Below, piece after piece: positions 1,091 to 37,874 of a stretch of 37,874 bases of DNA. The translations under genes and the position numbers were made by a program. The notes under the pieces were generated by a model, which worked only from the letters and a program-made list of their open reading frames with translations, was not told the origin of the DNA and made no database searches. The first letter of the stretch is position 1. Each line of letters begins with the position of its first letter. Source of the stretch: a virus. The DNA lies in IMG/VR virus record IMGVR_UViG_3300047509_000142, positions 1 to 37,874 of that record, one strand, 5' to 3'.

Positions 1091-1414
1091 TCAGTCGATT
1101 ACGGCGCGAGCGAGCTCGCCATTCATTTCGGTGAGCGGGTAGACTTCGTTGTCTCCGGCCAGCATCGTGATTGCCGTATGGCGGCCGAGGTGAGTCAGCT
1201 CCACGTCGCGCGACAAGCGGAGCCATTGCGTACCGTCCACATCGGCGTATTCGGCAGCCTCGAAATCGTCGATTCGGTGGGGCGCGCTATCGTGGCCCGC
1301 GAGAATGATCGGCGCGGTCGCGCGCTTCAGTAGCGGCAGCACGGTTGCCGGAATGGGCGTGCGGTTGATGACTAGGTCGCCGTGGCGCGCGTCGAGTTCG
1401 TTCGGTAGGTCCAT
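1091..1414 (-). CDS. Small HGD-type protein, partner of DUF6745
   Basis: 107 residues. Features seen: ARHGDLVI at the N-terminus, IP...V, an ILAGHDSAPHRI segment in the middle, then WLRLSRDVELTHLGRHTAI and a C-terminal EVYPLTE. This order resembles small proteins that I recall beside DUF6745 genes (HGD...IP...LAxGE..GHAH...YLRV...LTHEEH..I), although here several of the His/Glu positions are changed. Function unknown. A good AGGAG lies 5 nt before the ATG. It follows a 165-bp gap after the exonuclease-annealase gene and precedes the DUF6745-like gene by 10 bp, so the two are almost certainly co-transcribed. Confidence 0.65.
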   Translation of the reverse strand: MDLPNELDARHGDLVINRTPIPATVLPLLKRATAPIILAGHDSAPHRIDDFEAAEYADVDGTQWLRLSRDVELTHLGRHTAITMLAGDNEVYPLTEMNGELARAVID

Positions 1415-1532
1415 TGGTGCTCCTGTTGGGTTGAATGCGGAACTCTCTCCGCGGTCACGCTTGCTGCCTATTGGCTTGCGTTACGCCTAGTGTCTTGGCA
1501 GCTGGACCCGACCCGTGTAGCCCGATTGGCAC

Positions 1533-1577
1533 GAGTCGAAAGGGCGTCGCGCTTGCGCGCGCTCGGGGCCCTGACTC
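1533..1577 (-). other. Long hairpin after the exonuclease-annealase stop
   Basis: Three nested stems: GAGTC/GACTC, AGGGC/GCCCT and CGCGC/GCGCG, closed by a GCAA loop (GNRA type) when read on the minus strand. It starts 2 nt after the stop of the 1580-3064 gene and lies in the 165-bp gap before the HGD-type gene. There is no T-run, so it may be an RNA-processing or stability element, a partial attenuator, or a Rho-related structure. The rest of the gap (1415-1532) shows only the ribosome binding site of the next gene. Confidence 0.5.
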
Positions 1578-1579
1578 TT

Positions 1580-3064
1580 TCAGGCCGCCATCTCATCCGG
1601 CGAATACAGGCCCATCGTCGCGCCCGGTGCGATGACGCGACCGAGCTGAACCCCACCCGTCTTGCGCAGCATCTCGTCGGGGCGCTTGTCCCAATTGCTG
1701 TTTGGCTTCACCAGGCCAGCCTTCTTCGCCTGGTCGATGGTGTAGCGCAGCTTGATCGGTGGGCGCCCCGCCGCCGCGCCTTGTTTGCTCTGCCCCTCCC
1801 ATTCCGCGTACGTCGCGTCACCGCCGACGAATTCGAGGTATTCGCACTCAGGCGACGCCTTGGCGCGCGCGATGATGAAGTGCGCGTGTGGGCATGGCTT
1901 CCCTTCTACAATGTGAAACAGGTCGAGACTCGTGAGCGCCCCGAGCCCCATCTCGCGGCCTCGAATGATGACGGCGAAGATGGCTTCGGCGGACGGGAAG
2001 CGCGAGTAGAGCCGCGAGTTGTACAGGTCCTGCGCGAGCTTGTACGCGAGCCCGAGCGTCGTCGGTTCCAGGGCGAGGTCCCAGCTTGGCGGCGCCAGGG
2101 CCGCATGCTTCACCTGTACGAGCTCGGCTCTCTCTGTCCTGCGCTCTGGCGCGGGCGCCGCGTCTCCCTGCGCAGCCGGCGGGGGCTCGCTTGGCGTCGT
2201 CGATGCCCCTGGCTCGGACTTGGGAGCGGGCTCGAAATCAGCGTCGTCGAATCCGATGGAATTGGTGCTAGTGGTCAACGGTTTGATCTCCCTGGTCTCG
2301 TACAGCTCAGCAAAATTGATCGGCACGTCGTAGCGTAGCGACACGAGCTTGACGGTCGTCGGCAACCACGCGAGCGCTTCTTTTAGCTTCACGTCGATAG
2401 TCAGCGTCGCCACCGGTTTCGCGCGAGGCTTCACGACTTCGAGCATTACCTGCTCTAGCGTGACGTACTCTTCCAGTAGCTTTGCCGCGCCCCTGGGGCC
2501 GACGCCTTGCACTCCGCGCACGTTGTCGCTCGAGTCGCCGCAGATGGCGAGATAATCGCGCATCTGCTCAGGCCAGACGCCGAACTTCGCGCGCACGCCG
2601 TCTCGCGTCAGTAGCTCGCCAGTCTTCGGGCTCGCCCACGACACGCCGTACTGCACGAGCTGGGTCAAATCCTTGTCGGCACTCGCGACAACAACCTCGT
2701 GCCCAGCGGCTACTGCGGCACGGCAGGCCGTAGCGAGCACGTCATCCGCCTCGAAGCCTTCCGCCTCCCACAGCAAGAGCCCGTCCTTCGCCAGCGTATC
2801 CTTGGCCAGGCGCATCTGCTCGAAAGCGGCGGAATCGCGCGGCGGGCGGTGCGCCTTGTAGCTCGGCTCCAGCTCTTTGCGGAAATTCGACGGCGAATCG
2901 CAGCACACCGCGACCAGCGAATACGGGTAGCCCTCGCGCAGGCGACGCACCTGGTTGACCGAGCGGTCGTGCGCCGCGCTCATCTCGTCCTTGACCGACG
3001 AAAACCACGCGGGCCAGAAAATGGATCCCATATCAATCAGCAGGACAGGCCGTTGCGTGATCAT
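1580..3064 (-). CDS. 5'-3' exonuclease fused to RecT-like ssDNA-annealing domain
   Basis: 494 residues. Residues 1-258 are a PolA/FEN-type 5'-3' exonuclease: the acidic residues are present at D11, D56, the E105-A-D107-D108 cluster, D130/D132 and the GDSSDN motif at 176-181, followed by the GVQGVGPRGAAKLL helix-hairpin-helix. Residues about 258-315 are a Pro/Ala/Glu-rich linker. Residues about 318-494 resemble RecT-family annealing proteins: IFAVIIRGREMGLGALTSL, IVEGKP, CEYLEF, ATYAEW, RYTIDQAKKAGLV, a W..RPDEMLRK segment and MGLYSPDEM near the end. One uninterrupted frame spans both. Known families with these roles resect double strands and anneal the resulting single strands, as lambda Exo and Beta do from two genes. 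Start ATG overlaps the upstream stop (ATGA). Exonuclease part is secure; the annealase call rests on motif memory. Confidence 0.8.
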   Translation of the reverse strand: MITQRPVLLIDMGSIFWPAWFSSVKDEMSAAHDRSVNQVRRLREGYPYSLVAVCCDSPSNFRKELEPSYKAHRPPRDSAAFEQMRLAKDTLAKDGLLLWEAEGFEADDVLATACRAAVAAGHEVVVASADKDLTQLVQYGVSWASPKTGELLTRDGVRAKFGVWPEQMRDYLAICGDSSDNVRGVQGVGPRGAAKLLEEYVTLEQVMLEVVKPRAKPVATLTIDVKLKEALAWLPTTVKLVSLRYDVPINFAELYETREIKPLTTSTNSIGFDDADFEPAPKSEPGASTTPSEPPPAAQGDAAPAPERRTERAELVQVKHAALAPPSWDLALEPTTLGLAYKLAQDLYNSRLYSRFPSAEAIFAVIIRGREMGLGALTSLDLFHIVEGKPCPHAHFIIARAKASPECEYLEFVGGDATYAEWEGQSKQGAAAGRPPIKLRYTIDQAKKAGLVKPNSNWDKRPDEMLRKTGGVQLGRVIAPGATMGLYSPDEMAA

Positions 3065-3324
3065 GCTTTCTCCAATTCGTCGAACACCGCACGCAGCCTG
3101 ACCACGCTCGCCTCGAGTCCGCGGAGCCCGCCGGCAGCCATGCGCGTGTCGCCGTGCATCAACTCGTCAATCAGGCTGTGCAGGTTGCTGTTACAGGTCT
3201 GCGCCCATGCGAGCGCCGAGTCTTCCATGGCTTCGCGTGATGGCTTCGCTTTGACGACGCTGCCGCCGGGGAACCGAAGCGCTAGCGCCTCGTCGATGAG
3301 CGCGACCTCGCTGGCGGCGCTCAC
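3061..3324 (-). CDS. Hypothetical early protein
   Basis: 87 residues, not recognised. Mostly helical in appearance, with a C-terminal segment ending in VRLRAVFDELEKA. No cysteines pattern, signal or membrane segment. It overlaps the ParB-like gene upstream by 4 bp and the exonuclease-annealase gene downstream by 4 bp (ATGA), so it belongs to the same transcript and may serve recombination or replication. Confidence 0.65.
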   Translation of the reverse strand: MSAASEVALIDEALALRFPGGSVVKAKPSREAMEDSALAWAQTCNSNLHSLIDELMHGDTRMAAGGLRGLEASVVRLRAVFDELEKA

Positions 3325-4139
3325 TTTTCGAACCCCGGTTTGGTGAGCGTGATGACGATGTCAGCGCCGGGCGTGTTCGGCAGCTTGAGCGTGCGGCGCT
3401 TGGTCGTCACGAAGCGGTAGCCAGCCTCGCCCGAATAGACCGAGCGCTGCTCTTTGTTGCACAGAAAGTGCGTCACGCAATTGAGGCAGGCAAGCGCGCT
3501 GTCCCAGGGCTGCAACGCGCGCCGGTTGGCTTCGAGCCACCCACGGAGCGCGAATGCCGGGTCGCCACGCTTGAGCATTTCTCCGCGCGAGACCTGTGCC
3601 GCGAATTCGACAACGCGATCGCTGACTGGCACGGCCCAAACCAACGCAGCGATGATGCCGCCGAAAAGCTTGTCGCGGCCCGGAACGGGGGCCAGCGCCG
3701 CTAAGTCATCGGCGAAAAGCTCGTACACGGCCGTGCTCTGCGCCGCGGTCATGTTCGTCGTGAACTGGTAGCCATCAACGAAGCCACGGAGCACCTTGCA
3801 GGCCGCGATCGTCTTGGTCGTGTAACCCGTCAGGTAGCTCGTGGTGCGCTTGCGGTGCGTGTCGATCGGGTCGCCGATTTCGCTACCCGAGTTTTCGGCC
3901 ACGAGGATTTCGACCGTCTTGCCGGCTTGCACGATCGCGTTGAGCCGGTGCTGACCGTCGATGAGGCAGCCGTCGCCGTCAAAGCAGATACCCTGATGCG
4001 TGATTTTCCAGTTGCCGTTGGCGATGTCCCCCGCGATGGCATCGACGATCGCCTGCGAGATACGGCGATTTTTCGGGTGGTTTTTCTTCAGCCACTTTTC
4101 GGCCATCGCTGGCGTGACCTTTTTCAGCTCGATATTCAC
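3321..4139 (-). CDS. ParB/sulfiredoxin-like domain protein
   Basis: 272 residues from a GTG start. The N-terminal half carries the ParB/Srx signature: a K-x-H-P-K-N-R-R-I-S segment, IANGNWKITHQGICFDGDG, then DGQHRLNAIVQAGKTVEILV. Proteins with this fold bind or cleave nucleic acid, or act as nucleotide-dependent clamps; no C-terminal DNA-binding domain that would show a partition role is recognised here. The GTG at 4139 is chosen because GGGAGG lies 5 nt upstream and GTGA overlaps the previous stop; the frame is also open further upstream but without such a signal. The C-terminal half is unrecognised. Member of the early operon. Confidence 0.7.
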   Translation of the reverse strand: MNIELKKVTPAMAEKWLKKNHPKNRRISQAIVDAIAGDIANGNWKITHQGICFDGDGCLIDGQHRLNAIVQAGKTVEILVAENSGSEIGDPIDTHRKRTTSYLTGYTTKTIAACKVLRGFVDGYQFTTNMTAAQSTAVYELFADDLAALAPVPGRDKLFGGIIAALVWAVPVSDRVVEFAAQVSRGEMLKRGDPAFALRGWLEANRRALQPWDSALACLNCVTHFLCNKEQRSVYSGEAGYRFVTTKRRTLKLPNTPGADIVITLTKPGFEK

Positions 4140-4396
4140 GACGCCTCCCTCATTGCGTAAGCGCGCTCGCTGCGCGAATTGAACGGCAGCCGCACGAGAT
4201 GCGCCGTGCGGAACCACTCACCGCTCAGCCACTGGAATTGGTCGGCGCGCTCTTTCTCGAGCTGCGCGGCAGCCTTGGCTTGCGATTCCTCCCAGCACGC
4301 GAGGCAGCTGCCGTCATTGCCCTCGTGGGGCTCGTCGGGTAGCTCGGCGCCACATGCCACGCACTGAGCGGGCGCCACGTCGTACAGGCCGATCAC
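4136..4396 (-). CDS. Small zinc-ribbon protein
   Basis: 86 residues from a GTG start overlapping the previous stop. Two CxxC pairs (CVAC near residue 12 and CLAC near residue 32) are spaced as in a zinc ribbon. The C-terminal half is charged and helical, with WFRTAHLVRLPF. Likely a nucleic-acid or protein-binding accessory factor; the exact role is unknown. It sits directly before the ParB-like gene. Confidence 0.65.
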   Translation of the reverse strand: MIGLYDVAPAQCVACGAELPDEPHEGNDGSCLACWEESQAKAAAQLEKERADQFQWLSGEWFRTAHLVRLPFNSRSERAYAMREAS

Positions 4397-4827
4397 GACG
4401 CGCTCTCCGGATGCAGTCGATGCTCAGTCGCGTCGGGGTCATCAGCGTCGAGCCAAGCGTCGTACGCGCGCCAGTCGGGATGGCTGATGCCGTCCGCCCC
4501 GACAGGGAACGATACGCTTTCGGACGCCCGCAGCAGACGACACCCCTCTCGCATGTGGGCTAACTCGATCTCAGCAACCGCGCGTGTTGGCGGCGCCGCC
4601 GGCAGGAGCTTCGCGTCGTAGCTCGCCAACAGCGCGCGAATCACCTCGACCGGGATGCGCGTCAGGCCGAAGTGGTCGGCGCCCATGTCGAGGAGGCTCT
4701 GGTCGCGCTCGTCGGCAACCGTGAATTCGCCGTCGTCCTGGACCTCGACGTAGCTGCCGCCGGCAGTCGCGGGCTCAGCGTAGTCAGGGAGCACCTTCCA
4801 ACCGGCGATAATTGGCGCCGCGGTCAC
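4393..4827 (-). CDS. Hypothetical early protein
   Basis: 144 residues from a GTG start that overlaps the upstream stop (GTGA). Acidic protein, no recognised domain. The middle has an HFGLTRIPVEVIRALLASYDAKLLP segment in two helices, and the C-terminus is rich in Asp and Trp (PDWRAYDAWLDADDPDA). No membrane segment. Co-transcribed with the rest of the early operon. Confidence 0.6.
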   Translation of the reverse strand: MTAAPIIAGWKVLPDYAEPATAGGSYVEVQDDGEFTVADERDQSLLDMGADHFGLTRIPVEVIRALLASYDAKLLPAAPPTRAVAEIELAHMREGCRLLRASESVSFPVGADGISHPDWRAYDAWLDADDPDATEHRLHPESAS

Positions 4828-5006
4828 TGGAAACGCTCCGACGCGACCGACACCGTATGGCCTTGGTTCGCCCAGAACCGAGCGAGACGAAGCGCTCGCA
4901 GCTCACGCGCGGCGTACTGCTGCAACGTGGCGCGCGACGAAGCCAGCTCGCGGTATTCGCGCGCGGCCTCGGCGACGACACCCATGTAATGGTGAACGAC
5001 GCTCAT
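4824..5006 (-). CDS. Small hypothetical early protein
   Basis: 60 residues, not recognised. A basic helical segment (REYRELASSRATLQQYAAR) makes up the centre. ATG overlaps the stop of the upstream gene and its own stop overlaps the next GTG, both by 4 bp, which is the main support for it being real. Confidence 0.55.
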   Translation of the reverse strand: MSVVHHYMGVVAEAAREYRELASSRATLQQYAARELRALRLARFWANQGHTVSVASERFQ

Positions 5007-5200
5007 CGGCTACCCGCCTTGCGCAGCGGGTGAACGGTCGCGAGGCTCGTCGACTTGGCCTTGACCAGCCCCATCGGGCGGAAGGCGCGCAGCACGTCAC
5101 GCATGAGGGCGTCCGACTGCTCAGCGGCGTCCGGACGGTCGGATTCTGGGGTTTCGAGCACGGCGCGGATGGCGACCAGCTCGATTGCGATGCGATGCAT
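5003..5200 (-). CDS. First gene of the early-left operon (leaderless)
   Basis: 65 residues (MHRIAIELVAIR...), unrecognised, mainly helical with a basic C-terminus. The ATG at 5200 is chosen over upstream alternatives because it lies 7 nt after a TAATAC -10 box and right beside the second operator, so the transcript would begin at or next to the AUG. The Cro-like gene at 5988 has the same arrangement. A longer version starting upstream would need a ribosome site not seen in the sequence. Position as first repressor-controlled gene suggests an early regulatory or host-takeover role, but nothing in the sequence shows this. Confidence 0.6.
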   Translation of the reverse strand: MHRIAIELVAIRAVLETPESDRPDAAEQSDALMRDVLRAFRPMGLVKAKSTSLATVHPLRKAGSR

Positions 5201-5202
5201 GA

Positions 5203-5236
5203 GTAACGTATTACTATCGAGTAATTGGTTACGCAA
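5203..5236 (-). promoter_or_regulatory. Early-left promoter with two operators
   Basis: Minus strand: -35 TTGCGT (5236-5231), 17-bp spacer, -10 TAATAC (5213-5208), then 7 nt to the ATG at 5200. Two 12-bp palindromes, GTAACGTATTAC (5203-5214) and GTAATTGGTTAC (5221-5232), start 18 bp apart and cover both promoter boxes, so a bound repressor would block it. The same design is found at 5952-5985. Confidence 0.8.
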
Positions 5237-5464
5237 TACCCTCGCATCAAATAGGTGAGACATGCACCTACATGGACAATATGTGACAGCTTTGCACACG
5301 CACACTGGCGCGGTGTGGATTGCCCACGTAATGTGCGGCGTTCAGCTGCGAACCAAGAGGGTCCGATGCGAGTAGTGCTGCGGCGACTTGACGGGATGGC
5401 TACGGCGACGGCGGGGGGCCGGTCGATTCACGGGCCAGAAAAAGAGATTGCCGGCGTGCTCGAG
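5237..5464. other. Gap without a supported gene
   Basis: Lies between the early-left promoter and the 3' end of the repressor. Plus-strand frames are open here and run antisense into the repressor, but their composition looks like a shadow and there is no ribosome site in the right place. A short U-rich run follows the repressor stop on the minus strand (CTCTTTTTCT), without a clear hairpin. Nothing else is seen. Confidence 0.5.
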
Positions 5465-5896
5465 CTAGCGCGAATGCTCGTCGGCGGGGGCGGAGAGGGC
5501 GGCGGGGGCCTGCACATTTTCGAGCTTCTTAGCCAACAGCAAGGCGACCCAATAGTCGGCGCCGGGGTCTCGCTCGAGATCGGCGACGCTGGACACGGCA
5601 GCGATTATCGCCTTCGAGTAGCCAAGGACGTAAGCAGCGGCGATGGCGCGACGCCTGGAGGGATAAAGCGTGTCCTCAGGCAAATCCGCGGCGAAACTGC
5701 CGGTAGCGAGCCATTCGAATGAGACCTCGGCCGCCTTGGCGAGCTTCGCCAGCGTGCGGCTCTCCATGCTGTCGCGCCCGTCCTTGATCGCGAGACGCAC
5801 CGTGGCGCGCGGCACGTCCGCCTTCTGCGCCCATGACGACGGGTTCAGCCCGCGCAGGGCCATGACCTCACTGAGGCGTTCTGCCAGCGTGCTCAC
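5465..5896 (-). CDS. XRE-family phage repressor
   Basis: 143 residues from the GTG at 5896. Residues about 1-65 form an XRE helix-turn-helix: LAERLSEVMALRGLNPSSWAQ, then DVPRATVRLAI as recognition region and SRTLAKLAKAAEVSFEWLATG. The C-terminal half is Ala-rich and helical and contains no LexA/S24 Ser-Lys peptidase motifs, so RecA-driven self-cleavage is not expected. It is divergent from the Cro-like gene, with operators between and a further weak operator-like site (5907-5918) just before the start. No Shine-Dalgarno is seen; the start is therefore uncertain and upstream in-frame ATGs cannot be excluded. Likely maintains lysogeny by binding the paired palindromes at 5203-5232 and 5956-5985. 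Confidence 0.8.
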   Translation of the reverse strand: MSTLAERLSEVMALRGLNPSSWAQKADVPRATVRLAIKDGRDSMESRTLAKLAKAAEVSFEWLATGSFAADLPEDTLYPSRRRAIAAAYVLGYSKAIIAAVSSVADLERDPGADYWVALLLAKKLENVQAPAALSAPADEHSR

Positions 5897-5906
5897 AGGT
5901 GAGAGA

Positions 5907-5918
5907 GTAACTGAATAC
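5907..5918 (-). promoter_or_regulatory. Weak operator-like site before the repressor
   Basis: GTAACTGAATAC keeps the GTAAC half and the final TAC of the 12-bp operators but has a damaged second half. On the minus strand it overlaps a TATTCA box about 15 nt before the repressor GTG. It could mediate autoregulation. One imperfect site, so weakly supported. Confidence 0.3.
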
Positions 5919-5951
5919 GCCGCCATGCCGAGCCCGTGAAACGATTCGCGC

Positions 5952-5985
5952 TTGCGTAACCTGTTACCCTGGGGTAAGAGCTTAC
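5952..5985 (+). promoter_or_regulatory. Cro-like gene promoter with two operators
   Basis: -35 TTGCGT (5952-5957), 17-bp spacer, -10 TAAGAG (5975-5980), then 7 nt to the ATG at 5988. Palindromes GTAACCTGTTAC (5956-5967) and GTAAGAGCTTAC (5974-5985) start 18 bp apart and overlap the -35 and -10 boxes. The -35, spacer length, operator spacing and leaderless distance equal those at 5203-5236. Confidence 0.8.
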
Positions 5986-5987
5986 GC

Positions 5988-6251
5988 ATGGGTGATATTG
6001 CTGAACGACTCAAATGGGCTCGGGGTGTCACCGGCCTGAGTCAAAAACGGTTGGCGAATGCGGCCGGGCTCCAGAGCGACGGGCCAGTGCGGCACCTAGA
6101 ATCGGGTCTGACCAAGACGGTCGAGTCCGGGACCGCGGTCGCGCTCTCGGCGGTGCTTGGTTGCTCCGTCGATTGGCTGCTGACCGGTGAGGGCGACCCG
6201 CCGAAGGAAGAGACGCTGCGCGCGCTCTCTGAGCCCGGAGCGGCGGAATGA
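5988..6251 (+). CDS. Cro-like XRE regulator
   Basis: 87 residues. The first 65 residues are an XRE helix-turn-helix: IAERLKWARGVTGLSQKRLANAAGL with the turn at GLQSDGPVRHLESG, then AVALSAVLGCSVDWLLTGEG, a typical end of the domain. The short tail is unstructured. ATG at 5988 is chosen because it sits 7 nt after the -10 box and directly after operator 2; an upstream ATG at 5952 would place the start inside the promoter. Divergent from the repressor and controlled by the same operators, so it is the natural candidate for the lytic-side regulator. Confidence 0.8.
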   Translation: MGDIAERLKWARGVTGLSQKRLANAAGLQSDGPVRHLESGLTKTVESGTAVALSAVLGCSVDWLLTGEGDPPKEETLRALSEPGAAE

Positions 6252-6254
6252 TGA

Positions 6255-6473
6255 TCACCAAGGGCAAATCCCGATCGGGCGCACCCATGCCGGTGCGCGT
6301 GCCTCGCATGCGTGCATCGCGTCGCAGCTCAAACTGAGCTGTTTCCAGCATTCATTACGTTCGTCGTGCTTGCTCAAGCCCCAGCGGTCCGATTCGGACA
6401 GGGCGTGAGCGAGCCAGGCGCAGGCACCCAATAAAACCAACGTCGCGACCTTCCACCAATTCCAGGACTTCAT
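6255..6473 (-). CDS. Small membrane protein, possible exclusion factor
   Basis: 72 residues. One hydrophobic segment (WKVATLVLLGACAWLAHAL) near the N-terminus, then a Cys- and Trp-containing outer part (C..L.LSCDAMHACEA). It fills the space between the Cro-like gene and the 6472 gene, and the two ATGs of the divergent pair share the bases CATG. No ribosome site is visible, so the call is tentative. A minus-strand gene inside the immunity region would be expressed in the lysogen; small membrane proteins there are often superinfection-exclusion factors, but that is inference. Confidence 0.4.
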   Translation of the reverse strand: MKSWNWWKVATLVLLGACAWLAHALSESDRWGLSKHDERNECWKQLSLSCDAMHACEARAPAWVRPIGICPW

Positions 6474-6702
6474 GACCACAAAGGCCACAGTAACCAGGCT
6501 CCCGAGTCAAGGGAGGCCAGCTTTGACCGGTTCGATCGCGCTGCTGCGCATGCGGCACGAGCTGGGCTGGACGCAGGAACGCATGGCCGCGCACTACGGC
6601 GTGTCGGTCAAGACGTACCGGCGTCGCGAGACTGCGCGGAAGGTCGACCCCGTGTTTGACGGATTCGTTGCGCTGCTTGCGGCGCGGAAGGAGGCGGCGT
6701 GA
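6472..6702 (+). CDS. Small helix-turn-helix protein
   Basis: 76 residues. The segment IALLRMRHELGWTQERMAAHYGVSVKTYRRRETARKVDP is an XRE-type helix-turn-helix with W-T-Q-E-R-M as helix 2 and V-S-V-K-T-Y-R-R as recognition helix. Likely a DNA-binding regulator of the rightward early genes, in the position of a CII-like activator; no direct evidence of activation. AGGA lies 5 nt before the ATG. Next gene overlaps by 4 bp. Confidence 0.7.
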   Translation: MTTKATVTRLPSQGRPALTGSIALLRMRHELGWTQERMAAHYGVSVKTYRRRETARKVDPVFDGFVALLAARKEAA

Positions 6703-7103
6703 CAACCAACGTTGACCGGCATGCGCGATTCATTACCGCGCTCTCGAGCAAGCTGAACGAGTCCGAGCTTTGGGAGCTGATTCAGCTAGCGCAGAAGAAC
6801 GAATACTACGACGGCAAAAACGACGTGGTCCCTGTGCTCTCGAAGCGCCAGCAAGAGCTTTGCGATTGGCTCTGCTCCGCCGGCTACGCCCAAGCTGCGG
6901 ACGAACGGCTAAAGGCGGCGCTTGACGTAGCCAACGTCAAAATCAAGGCCTTTGAGAGCGAGCGCTACGACGCGCTCCGGGTCGTCGAGGAAGTGAAAAG
7001 GCAGGTCACTGCCATACGCCACGCCAAGCAAACGCTCGACGAAAAAGGCGGCGTTCTGCTCGAGCTGCTGAAGAACGTGCCGAACTCGGAAAGCCGGTAC
7101 TGA
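6699..7103 (+). CDS. Hypothetical coiled-coil protein
   Basis: 134 residues from a GTG that overlaps the previous stop. N-terminal half has HARFITALSSKLNESELWEL; C-terminal half is a long charged helix (ERYDALRVVEEVKRQVTAIRH). Not recognised; soluble. Part of the early-right operon. Confidence 0.65.
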   Translation: MTTNVDRHARFITALSSKLNESELWELIQLAQKNEYYDGKNDVVPVLSKRQQELCDWLCSAGYAQAADERLKAALDVANVKIKAFESERYDALRVVEEVKRQVTAIRHAKQTLDEKGGVLLELLKNVPNSESRY

Positions 7104-7201
7104 TGATCACCCAACAGCACTATGCCCTCGCCATGGCCGCCGTCTCGCTCGCGCTGAGCGTGCTCGGGACTGCGCTGCTCGTCGGGGTGAAACGTGGCTA
7201 A
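7103..7201 (+). CDS. Tiny single-span membrane protein
   Basis: 32 residues, starting MITQQHYALAM and continuing as one hydrophobic helix (AAVSLALSVLGTALLVGV) with a short basic end (KRG). The ATG overlaps the previous stop as TGATG. The next gene starts inside its 3' end. Too short to assign a function. Confidence 0.5.
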   Translation: MITQQHYALAMAAVSLALSVLGTALLVGVKRG

Positions 7202-7376
7202 GCAGCAACGCTATCCGCGCCTGACGCCGCTGCGAGCCTTTGAGCTTTTGCGCGGCCTGGACGAACAGGCCGGCGTCGTTCGCGGCACCGGCAAGGTCAA
7301 CAGCCACGTCGACAATCGAGCCCGCGTCGAGCTTGCCGACCACATCCGCGCTGCACTGGTCAAGGTGCGGCGGTGA
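7194..7376 (+). CDS. Small basic hypothetical protein
   Basis: 60 residues from GTG, with GGGGTGAAAC as ribosome site. Basic and helical (RLTPLRAFELLRGLDEQAG ... NRARVELADHIRAALVKVRR). Not recognised. Overlaps the next gene by GTGA. Confidence 0.55.
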   Translation: MAKQQRYPRLTPLRAFELLRGLDEQAGVVRGTGKVNSHVDNRARVELADHIRAALVKVRR

Positions 7377-7567
7377 TCGACGTGGCGAAGTTCAGTCGAG
7401 ACATCGCCGCGGAGACGGTGCAGCTCTGGCATGACGCGCACTATCGCAAGGTCGAAGCGGAACGCGACTTGCGCCGCGTGCAAGATTTGCTCGACTCGTG
7501 CGGCATCACCATTGCCCAGCTGGAAACGAAACTCGGCGTCCGAACCGCCACGATGGGCGGCCGTTGA
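7373..7567 (+). CDS. Small coiled-coil hypothetical protein
   Basis: 64 residues from GTG. Central charged helix (HYRKVEAERDLRRVQDLLDS) typical of a coiled coil. Unknown role. Starts in a GTGA overlap and ends in a TTGA overlap with the excisionase-like gene. Confidence 0.55.
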   Translation: MIDVAKFSRDIAAETVQLWHDAHYRKVEAERDLRRVQDLLDSCGITIAQLETKLGVRTATMGGR

Positions 7568-7917
7568 CGATTCTCACGCCCGCCGCCGTCGCGCTGCGCA
7601 TGGAATGCACCGTGCGCGCCGCGTTCAAGCTGCTGCGTCGGTTCGGCGCGCTCTCTTGTCGCGACTCGGACGGCAAACCCTCGCTTCGAATCACTGAGGA
7701 AAGGTTCCTGGAATGTCTGTCAAACGAGATGGCATCTACAAGCGCGGCTCGGTCTGGTGGCTCCGGACGGACCCCGTCACCGGCAAAGCCCTCTCGACGC
7801 GGTGCAAAGACCTTGAGGCCGCTCGCAGATTCCGAGCGAAGCGCGAACGCCTCGCAGCCGACCCGGCCCACGCAGCCGCGGAAACGGCGCGTCTCGACGA
7901 ATGGATCCGCCGCGTGA
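7564..7917 (+). CDS. Excisionase-like helix-turn-helix protein
   Basis: 117 residues from a TTG that overlaps the previous stop (TTGA). Residues 1-50 (LTPAAVALRMECTVRAAFKL ... LRITEERFLECL) look like a small winged helix-turn-helix of the MerR/excisionase kind. The rest is a basic, Ser/Arg/Pro-rich tail that is read from the same bases as the first 205 bp of the integrase in another frame. The integrase start at 7713 is sound, so either this is a true long overlap or the working protein is only the first half. Position just before the integrase supports a role in excision direction. Confidence 0.55.
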   Translation: MTILTPAAVALRMECTVRAAFKLLRRFGALSCRDSDGKPSLRITEERFLECLSNEMASTSAARSGGSGRTPSPAKPSRRGAKTLRPLADSERSANASQPTRPTQPRKRRVSTNGSAA

Positions 7918-8945
7918 TTGCGGTGAAGGAGTCGGACGGCTCGGCCGAGGCCACCGTCGAGGTATACCGGACGAAGCTCGGCCATTGGCTGCGGCTCGCG
8001 CCCGACGCGATGCTGTCCGAGGTACAGCCGCCTTTCGTTGACGCCTTCGTCGCGCAGCGCCGGACCGAGGACGTGACCGACCACACCATTTCGAAAGAGG
8101 TCACGCACCTGTGCACCGTGCTCAAGGCTGCCGAGCGCGCCGGCTGCTATTCGGGCAACATCGCTACCCTGCGCCCGCCGGGCCTGCATGCCGGCTACAA
8201 GCCCCGCAAGCGCGCCCTGTCCCGCGAGGAGGTTGTGGCACTCATGAGCGAGCTGAAGCCCGAGCTAGCCGCCCTGGTGGCCATCTGCGTGGCGCTTGGC
8301 TGTCGGCTGTCCGAGGCCTTTCGTTTGCAGCCGGGTGACGTGGGTGCGACTAGCGTGCACATTAAGGGGACAAAAACCGATGAAGCTGACCGCCATGTCC
8401 CGATCCTTTCCGTGTTTCGGTGTCTTCTTGCCGAGGGCGCGCGTTTCCTCCCCCTCGGAGCTGAGCCAAATAATCTCCGCAGAGATCTCGCGGCAGCTTG
8501 CCGCAGAGCCGGAATCGCCGTCGCCACCCCCAACGACCTACGACGTACGCATGCCACGCTCTTGGCCAGTGCTGGAGTCGATCGGGATGTCACCCGGCGA
8601 CTCCTCGGACATACGACCACCCGTCTCGTTGATACTGTCTACGGGCACCCAACGACGGAAGCGCTAGGGGCGCTCGCGGAAGCGAAGCTGCTGACCGCGG
8701 CACCGTTACAAGGACGCGACAGTCAGGCCAAGGAGATGAAGAAACCAGGAGCCGATTCGGGTATTCGAAACCCGGACCTGCGGTTTACGAAACCGGTATC
8801 ACGCCCGCCCGAAACGCGCCTATCCGTACTTCTACGGCGTTATCCCGGTCTAAGCCGGGGCGAACTGCTGCGAAGCGGAGCGGTTGACGATACAAGGACG
8901 CGACAGTCCGTCAGGGCTGCGGACCTGGCGGCGGTGGCGCCGTGA
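7713..8945 (+). CDS. int: Tyrosine integrase
   Basis: 410 residues. N-terminal part: GIYKRGSVWWLRTDPVTGK arm-type fold, then a core-binding domain (about 58-150). Catalytic domain from about 165: R198 in GCRLSEA, K221 in KGTKTDE, N274-D-L-R277 where many family members have His-x-x-Arg, H300 in LLGH and the nucleophile Y310 in DTVYGH. The approximately 95 residues after the tyrosine pass through an attP-like core (residues about 346-361) that is antisense to the 3' half of a tRNA-Thr; the GIRNPDLRF text is typical of such antisense tRNA reading. The last base pairs overlap the next gene as GTGA. Needed for integration and excision. It follows the excisionase-like gene. Confidence 0.93.
   Translation: MSVKRDGIYKRGSVWWLRTDPVTGKALSTRCKDLEAARRFRAKRERLAADPAHAAAETARLDEWIRRVIAVKESDGSAEATVEVYRTKLGHWLRLAPDAMLSEVQPPFVDAFVAQRRTEDVTDHTISKEVTHLCTVLKAAERAGCYSGNIATLRPPGLHAGYKPRKRALSREEVVALMSELKPELAALVAICVALGCRLSEAFRLQPGDVGATSVHIKGTKTDEADRHVPILSVFRCLLAEGARFLPLGAEPNNLRRDLAAACRRAGIAVATPNDLRRTHATLLASAGVDRDVTRRLLGHTTTRLVDTVYGHPTTEALGALAEAKLLTAAPLQGRDSQAKEMKKPGADSGIRNPDLRFTKPVSRPPETRLSVLLRRYPGLSRGELLRSGAVDDTRTRQSVRAADLAAVAP
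8707..8724 (+). repeat. Candidate integrase arm site, left copy
   Basis: TACAAGGACGCGACAGTC occurs here and again, exactly and in the same direction, at 8891-8908. The two copies flank the attP-like core, as arm-type integrase sites do. Both lie in the 3' part of the integrase gene. Confidence 0.6.
8748..8795 (-). other. Putative attP core (3' half of tRNA-Thr(CGU))
   Basis: Read on the minus strand this contains an anticodon loop TTCGTAA (anticodon CGT), the 3' stem strand ACCGC, a T-arm CGGGT-TTCGAAT-ACCCG (8758-8774), and an acceptor end GGCTCC. The 5' half of the anticodon stem already departs from the pairing expected, so identity with the host tRNA probably ends there. No full tRNA is present. 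Such a partial tRNA in a phage next to its integrase is the usual attP core, which restores the tRNA on integration. Confidence 0.65.
8891..8908 (+). repeat. Candidate integrase arm site, right copy
   Basis: Second exact copy of the 18-bp repeat described at 8707-8724, 96 bp beyond the right edge of the core. Confidence 0.6.
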
Positions 8946-9154
8946 AAGCCCTTGCCTGGTCTACCGTCGCGGTGAGGGAAGCGCTCGAGCGGGCCCCCTC
9001 TTTGCATTCGGCTGCCGAAGATCTCGGCGCCTCGACAATCGTCCTCCGTAGGCTTGCCGCTGCCCGCCCCACACTGCGTGGCGCCTACGAGCTGTGCCGC
9101 CTGCGCGGGCTCAGTGTTGCTGGACGGCGCCGGAAAGCGAGCGCTGCCGAATGA
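8942..9154 (+). CDS. Small HTH-like hypothetical protein
   Basis: 70 residues from GTG overlapping the integrase stop. STVAVREALERAPSLHSAAEDLG followed by STIVLRRLAAARP suggests a small helix-turn-helix, and the C-terminus is strongly basic (GRRRKAS). Probably DNA-binding. Because it begins just beyond the attP region it would be separated from the integrase in the prophage. Confidence 0.55.
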   Translation: MKALAWSTVAVREALERAPSLHSAAEDLGASTIVLRRLAAARPTLRGAYELCRLRGLSVAGRRRKASAAE

Positions 9155-9342
9155 GCGCCCTCTTCAACCAGCCGACCGCCCCCGCTCCGCGTCGCGCCAA
9201 GGACCCCGCCAGCATCGCCGCTCGACGCGCGAGGCATGAGGCTCGCTGCGAACTGCTAGCGCGCGGTGAGAGGCGGCTGCGGCGCGTGGACGGGCGGTGG
9301 CAGGTGCGTGGGTTCGATCGCGTTTGGAGGGAGTTCGCATGA
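9151..9342 (+). CDS. Small Arg-rich hypothetical protein
   Basis: 63 residues, ATG in an ATGA overlap. Very basic (RRARHEARCELLARGERRLRR). Function unknown. Supported by its neat fit between neighbours. Confidence 0.5.
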   Translation: MSALFNQPTAPAPRRAKDPASIAARRARHEARCELLARGERRLRRVDGRWQVRGFDRVWREFA

Positions 9343-9548
9343 ACGTAGACACCTTTCGCGCAGCGGTAGTCGCCCGAATCCGCAAGGGCAGCGCCGCTCA
9401 CCCGGGCACGTGCACGACTGCCGCGCTCGTCGGCAAGACGTTCCAAAAGCGGTTCAGCGCTAGCGACGTGGCGCTTGAGGCCGAGCTGACCAAGATGGTC
9501 AAAGAGGGCCTCATCGTGTGCACGAGCGGCATGTGGTGGAACCGGTGA
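9339..9548 (+). CDS. Small winged-helix-like protein
   Basis: 69 residues, GGAGG 8 nt before the ATG. The order of helices followed by LTKMVKEGLIVCTSGMWW resembles a small winged helix. DNA-binding is possible, not shown. Confidence 0.55.
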   Translation: MNVDTFRAAVVARIRKGSAAHPGTCTTAALVGKTFQKRFSASDVALEAELTKMVKEGLIVCTSGMWWNR

Positions 9549-9808
9549 GCCTCGAAGTCCTCGCCCGTGTCGGCACGTCGACCAACTCCGGCGCTCCGAT
9601 TCACCGCGTCCGCTGCTCCGAGTGCGGCGACGTTTTCCTGCGCGTCGGACAACGCGCGCACATTGAGGCGCAGTGCTGGTGTTCGACCTGTGCGCATGCG
9701 GCCAAGCGCATTCCTGACGCCCGTCGACTGCGCAACGCGCGGCGCTACCAGACTGCGGCGCGGCTGCCGGTGAAGTGCGGCACCCGGCCGAGATTGGCGG
9801 GAGGATGA
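9545..9808 (+). CDS. Small zinc-binding protein
   Basis: 87 residues from GTG (GTGA overlap). CSEC (residues about 23-26) and CWCSTC (about 45-50) give two Cys pairs for a zinc ribbon. The rest is basic (RIPDARRLRNARRYQ). Likely nucleic-acid binding; exact role unknown. Confidence 0.6.
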   Translation: MSLEVLARVGTSTNSGAPIHRVRCSECGDVFLRVGQRAHIEAQCWCSTCAHAAKRIPDARRLRNARRYQTAARLPVKCGTRPRLAGG

Positions 9809-10002
9809 GCAAAAAGAACGCGTACTGGAATGACCTCGCCCGCGGCTACTCGCGGCAGTTCGGCAAGCGCTGCCAGCGTGCTCGCTTTTGGAAGCGCATG
9901 GACCATCGCGTGCGGCGCCGCGTGCACGTCCGTTCGCGGCAGTGGCGCGGCCAGCATGATTGGGCTTGGGACGCCGGCAACCAAATGGAGATGCCGTTTT
10001 GA
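9805..10002 (+). CDS. Small basic Trp-rich protein
   Basis: 65 residues, GGGAGG just before the ATG. Rich in Arg and Trp (ARFWKRMDHRVRRRVHVRSRQWRGQ). Not recognised. Its stop overlaps the TTG of the DnaA-like gene. Confidence 0.5.
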   Translation: MSKKNAYWNDLARGYSRQFGKRCQRARFWKRMDHRVRRRVHVRSRQWRGQHDWAWDAGNQMEMPF

Positions 10003-10349
10003 AGTCCGATTATCGGTATCTGGAATTCATGGTGTCCTGTTGTGTAGCGCTTCAGGTCGACGTGGAGGACGTGCTGAGCCGCGTGCGCTTTCCGCGCGCC
10101 GTGGTGGAGGCGCGACACTTGGTCGCGTTCGGCCTGCGCGAGCGCTTCAATCTGAGTTATCCCCACACTGGGCACATCTTGGGGGCTCGCGATCACACCA
10201 CTGTGATGCACTCGATTAGCGTTGTGCGCGCCGCGGAGCTAGCTGGCAAGCTCTGGGCGACAGAGGGCCTACTGCGCGTGCGTGCGGTCGCTCCGCTGAC
10301 GCCCGCCGTCGAGCTCGAGTCGCCGCTGGAAAGCTTGGGGCACGGATGA
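9999..10349 (+). CDS. Stand-alone DnaA domain IV-like protein
   Basis: 116 residues from TTG (TTGA overlap; GGAG about 10 nt upstream). Residues about 10-75 match the C-terminal DNA-binding domain of DnaA: VALQVDVEDVLSRVR, then VVEARHLVAFGLRERFNLSYPHTGHILGARDHTTVMHS, including the GARDHTTVMH signature that reads the DnaA box. The AAA+ ATPase and domain I are absent. It may mark or mask DnaA boxes on phage or host DNA. It is followed immediately by the replication initiator-like gene. A shorter start at the ATG near residue 11 is possible. Confidence 0.8.
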   Translation: MKSDYRYLEFMVSCCVALQVDVEDVLSRVRFPRAVVEARHLVAFGLRERFNLSYPHTGHILGARDHTTVMHSISVVRAAELAGKLWATEGLLRVRAVAPLTPAVELESPLESLGHG

Positions 10350-11233
10350 GTTGGTCCAAGTTCGATGACGCCGCGCCGAAAAGCCCGAAGGCTGTCATCG
10401 CCGGGAACGAGGCGTGGTCGCTGTGGGCAGCCGCGGTCATGTACTGCAACCGGCACAACACCGATGGCTACGTGACTCTCGCGGCGCTCGCGGTCGACTG
10501 CCTGCCGAGGCCGATACCGGTCGCGAAAGCGCGCAAGCTGGCGGACGCGCTGTGCGATGCGCGGGCTCGTCCCGAAGGCAAAGGGCTCTTTGAGCTGGAC
10601 AGGAATGACATGTATCGAGTCCACGATTTCCTAGATTGGAATCCGTCAAAAGCCGAAGTGGAATCCAAGCGGAAACTAGACCGCGACCGGAAGCGCGGCG
10701 GACGCGGAGTCGAGCAGGATTCCGAGCGGAAGCCAAGCGGACGGCGAACGGATTCCGTCCCCCCGCGCGCCTCTCCCGTCCCGACCTCTCCCGTCCCGAC
10801 CATACCCGACCCGGATGAGAGCGCGCGCGCGTCCGTGCCCGACGAGCAAGGCACATGGGACGGCTCGGAGCGGGAAACCGCCTGCCCACTGGACATCGCG
10901 CAGCGAGCAAAAGTGCTCGGAATCCCCGAAAAACTAGCCGAATCGCTGAAAGTCGACCGCTCCGCCGTTGATGCTCTTATCCACGATTTCGCGAGCTATT
11001 GGACCATCGGCGGCGGGATGGGCCAGAAACGCCGGCATTGGATGCGAAAGCTGCGGGAGAACGTGCGGAAGGAGGCCGGAAAACCCGGTGGATTGCCAGC
11101 GCCGGGCGCGCTCGAGCATTCGAATCTGACGCGGGAAAGCCGGATTGTGCTGAAAGAAATCGACCAGGTCGAACAAAGCCGCCTGGTTTACGAGGCTGAA
11201 AAGAAGCGAAGGGCGGCGGCAAATGGCCAGTGA
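10346..11233 (+). CDS. Phage replication initiator-like protein (winged helix)
   Basis: 295 residues. N-terminal 100 residues: W-S-K-FDD..P, AAVMYCNRHNTDGYVTLAAL, ALCDA...GLFELDRNDMYRVHDFLDWN, a pattern common in phage replisome-organiser proteins with a winged helix. The middle (about 105-175) is a low-complexity Arg/Ser/Pro linker with repeated SPVPT. The C-terminal 110 residues (WTIGGGMGQKRRHWMRKLRENV) resemble the domain that contacts helicase or loader in DnaT/O-like proteins. Adjacent to a DnaA-like gene. Likely starts phage DNA replication. Confidence 0.7.
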   Translation: MSWSKFDDAAPKSPKAVIAGNEAWSLWAAAVMYCNRHNTDGYVTLAALAVDCLPRPIPVAKARKLADALCDARARPEGKGLFELDRNDMYRVHDFLDWNPSKAEVESKRKLDRDRKRGGRGVEQDSERKPSGRRTDSVPPRASPVPTSPVPTIPDPDESARASVPDEQGTWDGSERETACPLDIAQRAKVLGIPEKLAESLKVDRSAVDALIHDFASYWTIGGGMGQKRRHWMRKLRENVRKEAGKPGGLPAPGALEHSNLTRESRIVLKEIDQVEQSRLVYEAEKKRRAAANGQ

Positions 11234-11693
11234 GCGCGACTTTCCGTACGACCCAACGGCGCGCGTCGAGCAGCTCAGCGGGCTCGAGAAGCTCCGCGCG
11301 GTGCAGGACCGCGGGCTCGCGGCGCTGATGTTTGATCTCTGGTTTCGCGTCGCGCCGGACCTGCCGACCGCCGAGGAATACGACCCGAGCACGTACGGCG
11401 ACGAGCCCGACACGAGCCAGTTGCACGACCCGACCGATAGCCTCGCCGACGAGCGCGACCGCAATAACGCGGCGCTGCATTTCTGCTGGAAGGAGTTTTA
11501 CCGGAACATGGAAGACTACGAACGCAAGCGCGGGCGACGGCTGAATCAGCAGCAGCGCGCGCAGCACGTCTGGAACTTCGCGGGCATCATGGAGCGGACC
11601 TACGGCGCGCCGTACCCGCTGAGCACGTGGGTCGAGCGCCGCAAGGACTGGGAGAATCGGCCGAGTGGGCGCAACGGTGGAGGCGCGTCGTGA
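11223..11693 (+). CDS. Hypothetical protein next to the initiator
   Basis: 156 residues, not recognised. N-terminal RDFPYDPTARVEQLSGLEKLRAVQ; two helical segments around FCWKEFYRNMEDYERKRGRRL and QHVWNFAGIMERTYG. No ATP-binding motif, so not an obvious helicase loader, although the position after the initiator would suit an accessory factor. Overlaps the previous gene by 11 bp. Confidence 0.65.
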   Translation: MASERDFPYDPTARVEQLSGLEKLRAVQDRGLAALMFDLWFRVAPDLPTAEEYDPSTYGDEPDTSQLHDPTDSLADERDRNNAALHFCWKEFYRNMEDYERKRGRRLNQQQRAQHVWNFAGIMERTYGAPYPLSTWVERRKDWENRPSGRNGGGAS

Positions 11694-37630: not shown

Positions 37631-37874
37631 CTCCTAACGCGGGCGTCCACGCGGGCGGACACGCGGTCGTACACGCGGGCGTCCACGCGGTCGTACACGC
37701 GGGCGTACACGCGGTCGTACACGCGGGCGGACACGCGGGCGGACACGCGGTCGGACACGCGGGCGTCCACGCGGTCGTACACGCGGGCGTACACGCGGTC
37801 GGACACGCGGTCGGACACGCGGGCGTACACGCGGGCGGACACGCGGGCGTACACGCGGGCGTCCACGCGGGCGT
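37621..37874 (-). CDS. Tetrapeptide-repeat protein 1, C-terminal part (continued from base 1)
   Basis: The frame enters at 37874 in phase with the ORF that starts at base 157 and ends with VDARVRRLQ and a TGA at 37623-37621. The last codons AGG-AGG-CTG form the ribosome site of repeat protein 2. In this part the units mix all five observed forms (SA, SD, YA, YD, DA). Inclusion as one gene with 1-157 depends on the window being circular. Confidence 0.65.
   Translation of the reverse strand, partial: ARVDARVYARVSARVYARVSDRVSDRVYARVYDRVDARVSDRVSARVSARVYDRVYARVYDRVDARVYDRVSARVDARVRRLQ

Follow-up and report, generated by a model that had tools for sequence, protein, structure and literature searches.

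Myxococcus phage Mx8 provides a precedent in principle for an attachment site inside an integrase gene. According to reviews, attP of Mx8 lies in int and integration exchanges 112 C-terminal residues of Int for 13, which leaves the enzyme with lower activity or an altered specificity (PMC4701971, PMC6070905). The archaeal suicidal integrases of the SSV type also have attP within the integrase gene (PMC8371274), and the streptococcal ICEs in rumA bear a changed integrase C-terminus when integrated (PMC4701971). In mycobacteriophage BPs and its relatives, attP is inside a reading frame whose product becomes shorter, with a changed activity, upon integration (PMC4557955). Transcripts of the transfer genes of Tn916 cross the joined attachment site, and the downstream functions need the circular form of the element (PMC6540685).

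The soil phage analyzed here, IMGVR_UViG_3300047509_000142, is called the window, by which we mean the whole stretch of 37,874 nucleotides; its relatives are labelled L0xx, and the close ones were drawn from IMG/VR. Judged from its domain and its active-site Arg, His and Tyr, the integrase of the window is a tyrosine recombinase (Table 1). The catalytic Tyr310 is encoded at nt 8640 in the usual LGHTTTRLVDTVYGHP context, and an alignment of the integrase with 12 relatives showed that R198, H280, R/H around 277-300 and Y310 are invariant. The predicted structure (AlphaFold2, 12 sequences) gave pLDDT values of 72-94 per block for residues 11 to 310 and of 34-66 past residue 310; the confident fold comprises residues 1 to about 328, and residues 330-410 form the attP-encoded extension. 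The N-terminus was predicted as a three-strand and helix fold whose top Foldseek match is lambda Int. This predicted fold and the repeats around the core make the enzyme a candidate lambda-type (arm-binding, heterobivalent) integrase. The window integrase had no match among annotated phages, and that of L003 matched remote integrases alone among annotated phages and nothing among plasmids. Orthologues of the small HTH gene upstream overlap int in L003, L036, L037 and L039, and their HTH_17 matches in L003, L037 and L039 are weak (E 7.5e-4 to 5.5e-3, under the curated cut-off).

Table 1 Features of the putative attP, the integrase gene and the early operon in the window.
Feature	Position	Strand	Basis or remark
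CI-like repressor, divergent from early operon	5465..6031	-	PHROG 2328, 1.4e-8
Small HTH (HTH_17-like) gene, candidate excisionase	7564..7917	+	Overlaps int start out of frame; like Mx8 uoi
Integrase ORF, tyrosine recombinase, 410 aa	7713..8945	+	Pfam PF00589, 4.3e-12; PHROG 1 integrase, 9e-40
Arm-type site 1 (TACAAGGACGCGACAGTC)	8707..8724	+	Exact direct repeat; counterparts in L002 and L003 on the same side of the core
Putative attP core, 3' half of tRNA-Thr(CGU)	8748..8795	-	tRNA match; in frame in L002 and L003
Int codons 362-410 plus stop; host sequence predicted to take their place in the prophage	8796..8945	+	Core geometry
Arm-type site 2, second exact copy of TACAAGGACGCGACAGTC	8891..8908	+	16-bp motif begins 143 bp past core start
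Next operon gene	8942..9154	+	GTG overlaps int stop codon by 4 bp (GTGA)
Replication initiation protein	10346..11233	+	PHROG 2447, 8.8e-25; ends the chain of 4-bp overlaps that includes int

A preliminary description of this DNA had placed an attP with arm sites inside the integrase gene, around a partial tRNA-Thr(CGU) sequence past the catalytic tyrosine. The position of Tyr310 and the tRNA matches confirmed the latter part: the core corresponds to integrase codons 346-361 in antisense, and on the minus strand an anticodon loop, variable loop, T arm, acceptor strand and U73 can be followed. By BLAST, the anticodon arm and variable loop match tRNA-Thr(CGU) genes of other contigs (31 bp at 97%, 21 bp at 100%), and the T-stem and the acceptor 3' strand are self-consistent. 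ARAGORN detected no full tRNA, as would be expected of half a tRNA. A Streptomyces plasmid sequence that matched the core was rejected, as it is not a tRNA. An attP that bears the 3' half of a tRNA gene through the anticodon loop is the mark of tRNA-targeted integration, and restoration of the gene is predicted for this site. The anticodon loop at 8785-8791 is the probable overlap region, where crossover is likely to occur. In an unrelated prophage (L022/L028) that sits in a tRNA-Thr(CGU), the shared block spans the tRNA from its 3' end up to and including the anticodon stem, and these same block boundaries support the assumed crossover point.

The two arm repeats lie 184 bp apart and, as described before, are exact over 18 bp; among 2000 codon shuffles of the integrase ORF, none gave an exact repeat of at least 18 bp and three gave one of at least 16 bp. 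The two copies are translated in different frames (LQGRDS and DTRTRQS) and are therefore repeats at the DNA level. In the close relatives L002 and L003 (83% and 62% integrase protein identity), the core lies in the same frame of int and differs from that of the window in the T stem on both stem strands, indicating that pairing is kept. The distance from the core start to the second repeat is exactly 143 bp in all three phages, with a spacer that is only 35-56% identical, and the first repeat lies 41, 65 and 65 bp ahead of the core in the window, L002 and L003, respectively. The fixed spacing, the free sequence and the different frames of the repeats argue for DNA sites that are predicted to be bound by protein. 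A search of genome contigs for prophages and hosts gave no confirmed integrase relative (it used two short peptide patterns, a weak test) and no match to the tRNA-core pattern.

One could suppose that the tRNA block is a chance or decoy fragment and no attachment site, and that the repeats have another use, for example as a repressor operator. Although no integration junction was seen, this is very improbable, given that the block lies next to int with flanking repeats at fixed spacing, that it is conserved with changes on both strands of the T stem and that other tRNA-like blocks are used in relatives. The reading of 8707-8908 as an attP of arm-core-arm layout inside int is strongly supported by its sequence, through the tRNA half, the exact repeats, the same layout in relatives and the precedent of Mx8; this main claim of the preliminary description thus stands.

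A scan with the catalytic part of the integrase yielded nine further integrases. Repeat pairs spaced by 162-221 bp were present in L036, L037, L039, L040 and L042, within ORFs extending 114-137 aa past the catalytic tyrosine. The repeats are diverged versions of the window-type arms in the first four of these, as they are in L002 and L003, and the pair of L042 is one of its own, exact over 20 bp; a lack of the repeats in relatives, which would have spoken against the site, was thus checked for and not borne out. By eye, the core of L039 resembles a tRNA-Val 3' half (BLAST support absent) and that of L040 a tRNA-Arg(CCG) 3' half (BLAST support weak); no core was recognized in L037 and L042. A tRNA-Arg(CCU)-like 5' half in sense was seen at about 8285-8340 in L036, again by eye and with weak BLAST support, which is the rarer orientation of an attachment site. 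L038 has an ORF of 89 aa past the tyrosine with no clear arm pair found, and it was excluded from the arm-site count because it lacks a repeat pair; an OrfB/IS605-type (TnpB-like) transposase gene lies downstream of its integrase at 9801-10922. The integrases with an extended attP region continue for 100-137 aa past the tyrosine, those of L041, L043 and L044 for 27-40 aa and distant integrases for about 13-42 aa. In L044, a tRNA-like block was found directly past the int stop, within the following gene (8239-8826). From these comparisons, attP appears to lie inside int in the window phage and at least seven relatives.

In 8/8 phages, nothing interrupts the frame between arm 1 and the end of the ORF. 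By dinucleotide shuffles of each stretch, the chance of an open frame is 0.005-0.26 per phage with a product of 1.6e-10. This product treats eight related phages as independent and so gives the claim at its strongest, a reservation that is eased by the unrelated sequences of several of the spacers. The second arm is in an identical frame in all seven phages with the common arm motif, and the end of the extended ORF overlaps the start of the next gene in 9/9 (by 4 bp in six and 8 bp in three). What this conservation favors is a frame kept open, and genes kept coupled, across attP, more than the protein sequence of the tail. A passive arrangement, in which the position of attP reflects gene packing and read-through has no regulatory effect, would fit the 4-bp overlaps seen throughout the packed genes of these phages, the absence of the extension in the three short-tailed relatives and the tRNA-like block just 3' of the int stop in L044. 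However, the frame is kept open through unrelated spacers and cores in the eight phages, and this and the constant frame of arm 2 suggest selection for reading through. We consider a passive arrangement rather unlikely.

Integration had also been proposed to swap the C-terminal codons of Int for host sequence, and this remains the prediction, supported by comparison and by the precedent of Mx8. When the int frame was continued into tRNA-Thr(CGU) genes that occur on other contigs (nine genes), it ran for 4-25 residues past the core, and in five of the nine it immediately met the D-arm TGA. A host-encoded tail of about 4-25 residues is thus a forecast, modelled on tRNA-Thr(CGU) genes already known.

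The same description suggested that the swap gives a directional control, with the phage Int (with its tail) and the prophage Int (without it) differing in activity or specificity. The Mx8 precedent is in favor of this, as the altered Int is reported to be less active or changed in specificity (PMC4701971, PMC6070905). In addition, the tails of L039 and L040 past the second arm are identical at 25/41 residues, with 10, 11 and 17 differences by codon position, an excess at the third position, and only in this pair does the post-attP tail look like a conserved protein. In the window, L002 and L003, by contrast, the spacer from core to arm 2 varies equally at all codon positions, unlike the integrase body: between the window and L002, differences number 29/17/81 by codon position in the body, with a third-position excess, and 20/20/20 in the post-core spacer. 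Tail lengths and sequences vary, and the pLDDT of the tail is 34-56. The equal change at all codon positions and the low confidence after residue 328 indicate that the tail is not kept as protein sequence in the window group, and a conserved functional domain in the tail of this group was rejected on the lack of codon-position bias and the low pLDDT. Directional control by the swapped tail is possible but not favored by conservation in the window group, and we hold it to be doubtful.

The 4-bp overlaps are unbroken from 7194 to 11233 in the window, across int to the replication initiator, and replication genes lie on the same strand downstream of int in L002, L037, L039 and L042. Since the open frame through attP ends in an overlap with the next gene, attP is placed within a coupled early operon. 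Drawn from this gene order and these overlaps, the favored reading is that integration would split the operon. The site at 8707-8908 would be the functional attP of a lambda-type integrase, with crossover in the anticodon loop, and would sit midway in a translationally coupled early operon composed of the HTH/Xis-like gene, int, small genes and the replication initiator. Integration would rebuild the tRNA on the int side, exchange the Int residues from about 362 for a short host-encoded tail and separate the replication genes, which would then lie at the opposite end of the prophage, from int and its upstream promoter. In the lysogen, the early promoter would express Xis and Int without replication, and excision would rejoin the operon and so gate lytic replication; the change of the Int tail may add a bias. 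Against the splitting of the operon, the replication genes could have a promoter of their own downstream of attP; a scan of the plus strand from 5900 to 11300 found no sigma-70-like site, a consensus that may not be that of the host. Taken together, an attP in int within a coupled operon that integration splits, with excision gating replication, is the best explanation overall and in our judgment a fairly probable one.

The DNA identity between the window and L002 (84%) ends at the core end; past attP it is L037 that L002 matches, at 78-96% identity over several stretches. L002 is accordingly mosaic, with positions 1-1014 (the int half) window-like, positions 1156-11129 L037-like and the border at attP. 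This switch of identity makes attP look like an exchange border between the int side and the replication side. It is unlikely that L002 is an assembly chimera, because its second arm lies at exactly +143 and its frame continues. More tentatively, and with somewhat less than even confidence, we extend the proposal to a group of temperate soil phages whose attP lies in int within a coupled operon: the early promoter would lose its connection to the replication genes on integration and regain it only by excision, the frame would be kept open by selection despite turnover of sequence, and attP would also be a border for swaps between the int side and the replication side.

Two other features of the window were observed. 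An array of 12-bp units (ACACGCGGGCGT) occurs at both ends, in positions 1-120 and 37755-37874, alike at 118/120 positions, and the record may therefore be a complete circle, though it is classed as linear. An ORF at 1580-3064 (minus strand) matches an exonuclease in its first half and a RecT-like annealing protein in its second half, an apparent fusion.

The arrangement extends attP in int from Mx8 and a few other elements to soil phages unrelated to them by sequence. If the proposal is true, excision must precede expression of the replication genes, which amounts to a DNA-rearrangement switch inside an operon. Such systems could be found automatically by searching for integrases that extend at least about 90 residues beyond the catalytic tyrosine and hold a tRNA half.

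Compared with the known systems, the window is most similar in layout to Mx8: in both, attP is in the int ORF downstream of the catalytic tyrosine, and integration rewrites the Int C-terminus (according to reviews for Mx8, and as a prediction for the window). In both, too, a small HTH gene (uoi in Mx8) overlaps the int start and a replication initiator lies downstream on the same strand. The Mx8 Int itself is very distant (27% over 230 aa, E 0.011; profile comparison probability 49%), and by this lack of close homology the window integrase is outside the Mx8 integrase family. The 3' region of Mx8 int, unlike that of the window, was found to hold no widely spaced pair of direct repeats, merely a tandem TGTGACAGCGG pair, and its stop lies 47 bp ahead of the next gene with no 4-bp overlap. 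Integration splits and inactivates the enzyme in the SSV type, whereas the window integrase would keep its catalytic domain to residue 361. The streptococcal elements in rumA differ in using a serine integrase and a target that is not a tRNA, and in the integration-dependent immunity of BPs the gene concerned is the repressor, not the integrase. As proposed for the window phage, Tn916 expresses genes through the joined attachment site; Tn916, however, is a conjugative element with transfer genes, whereas the window would gate phage replication genes.
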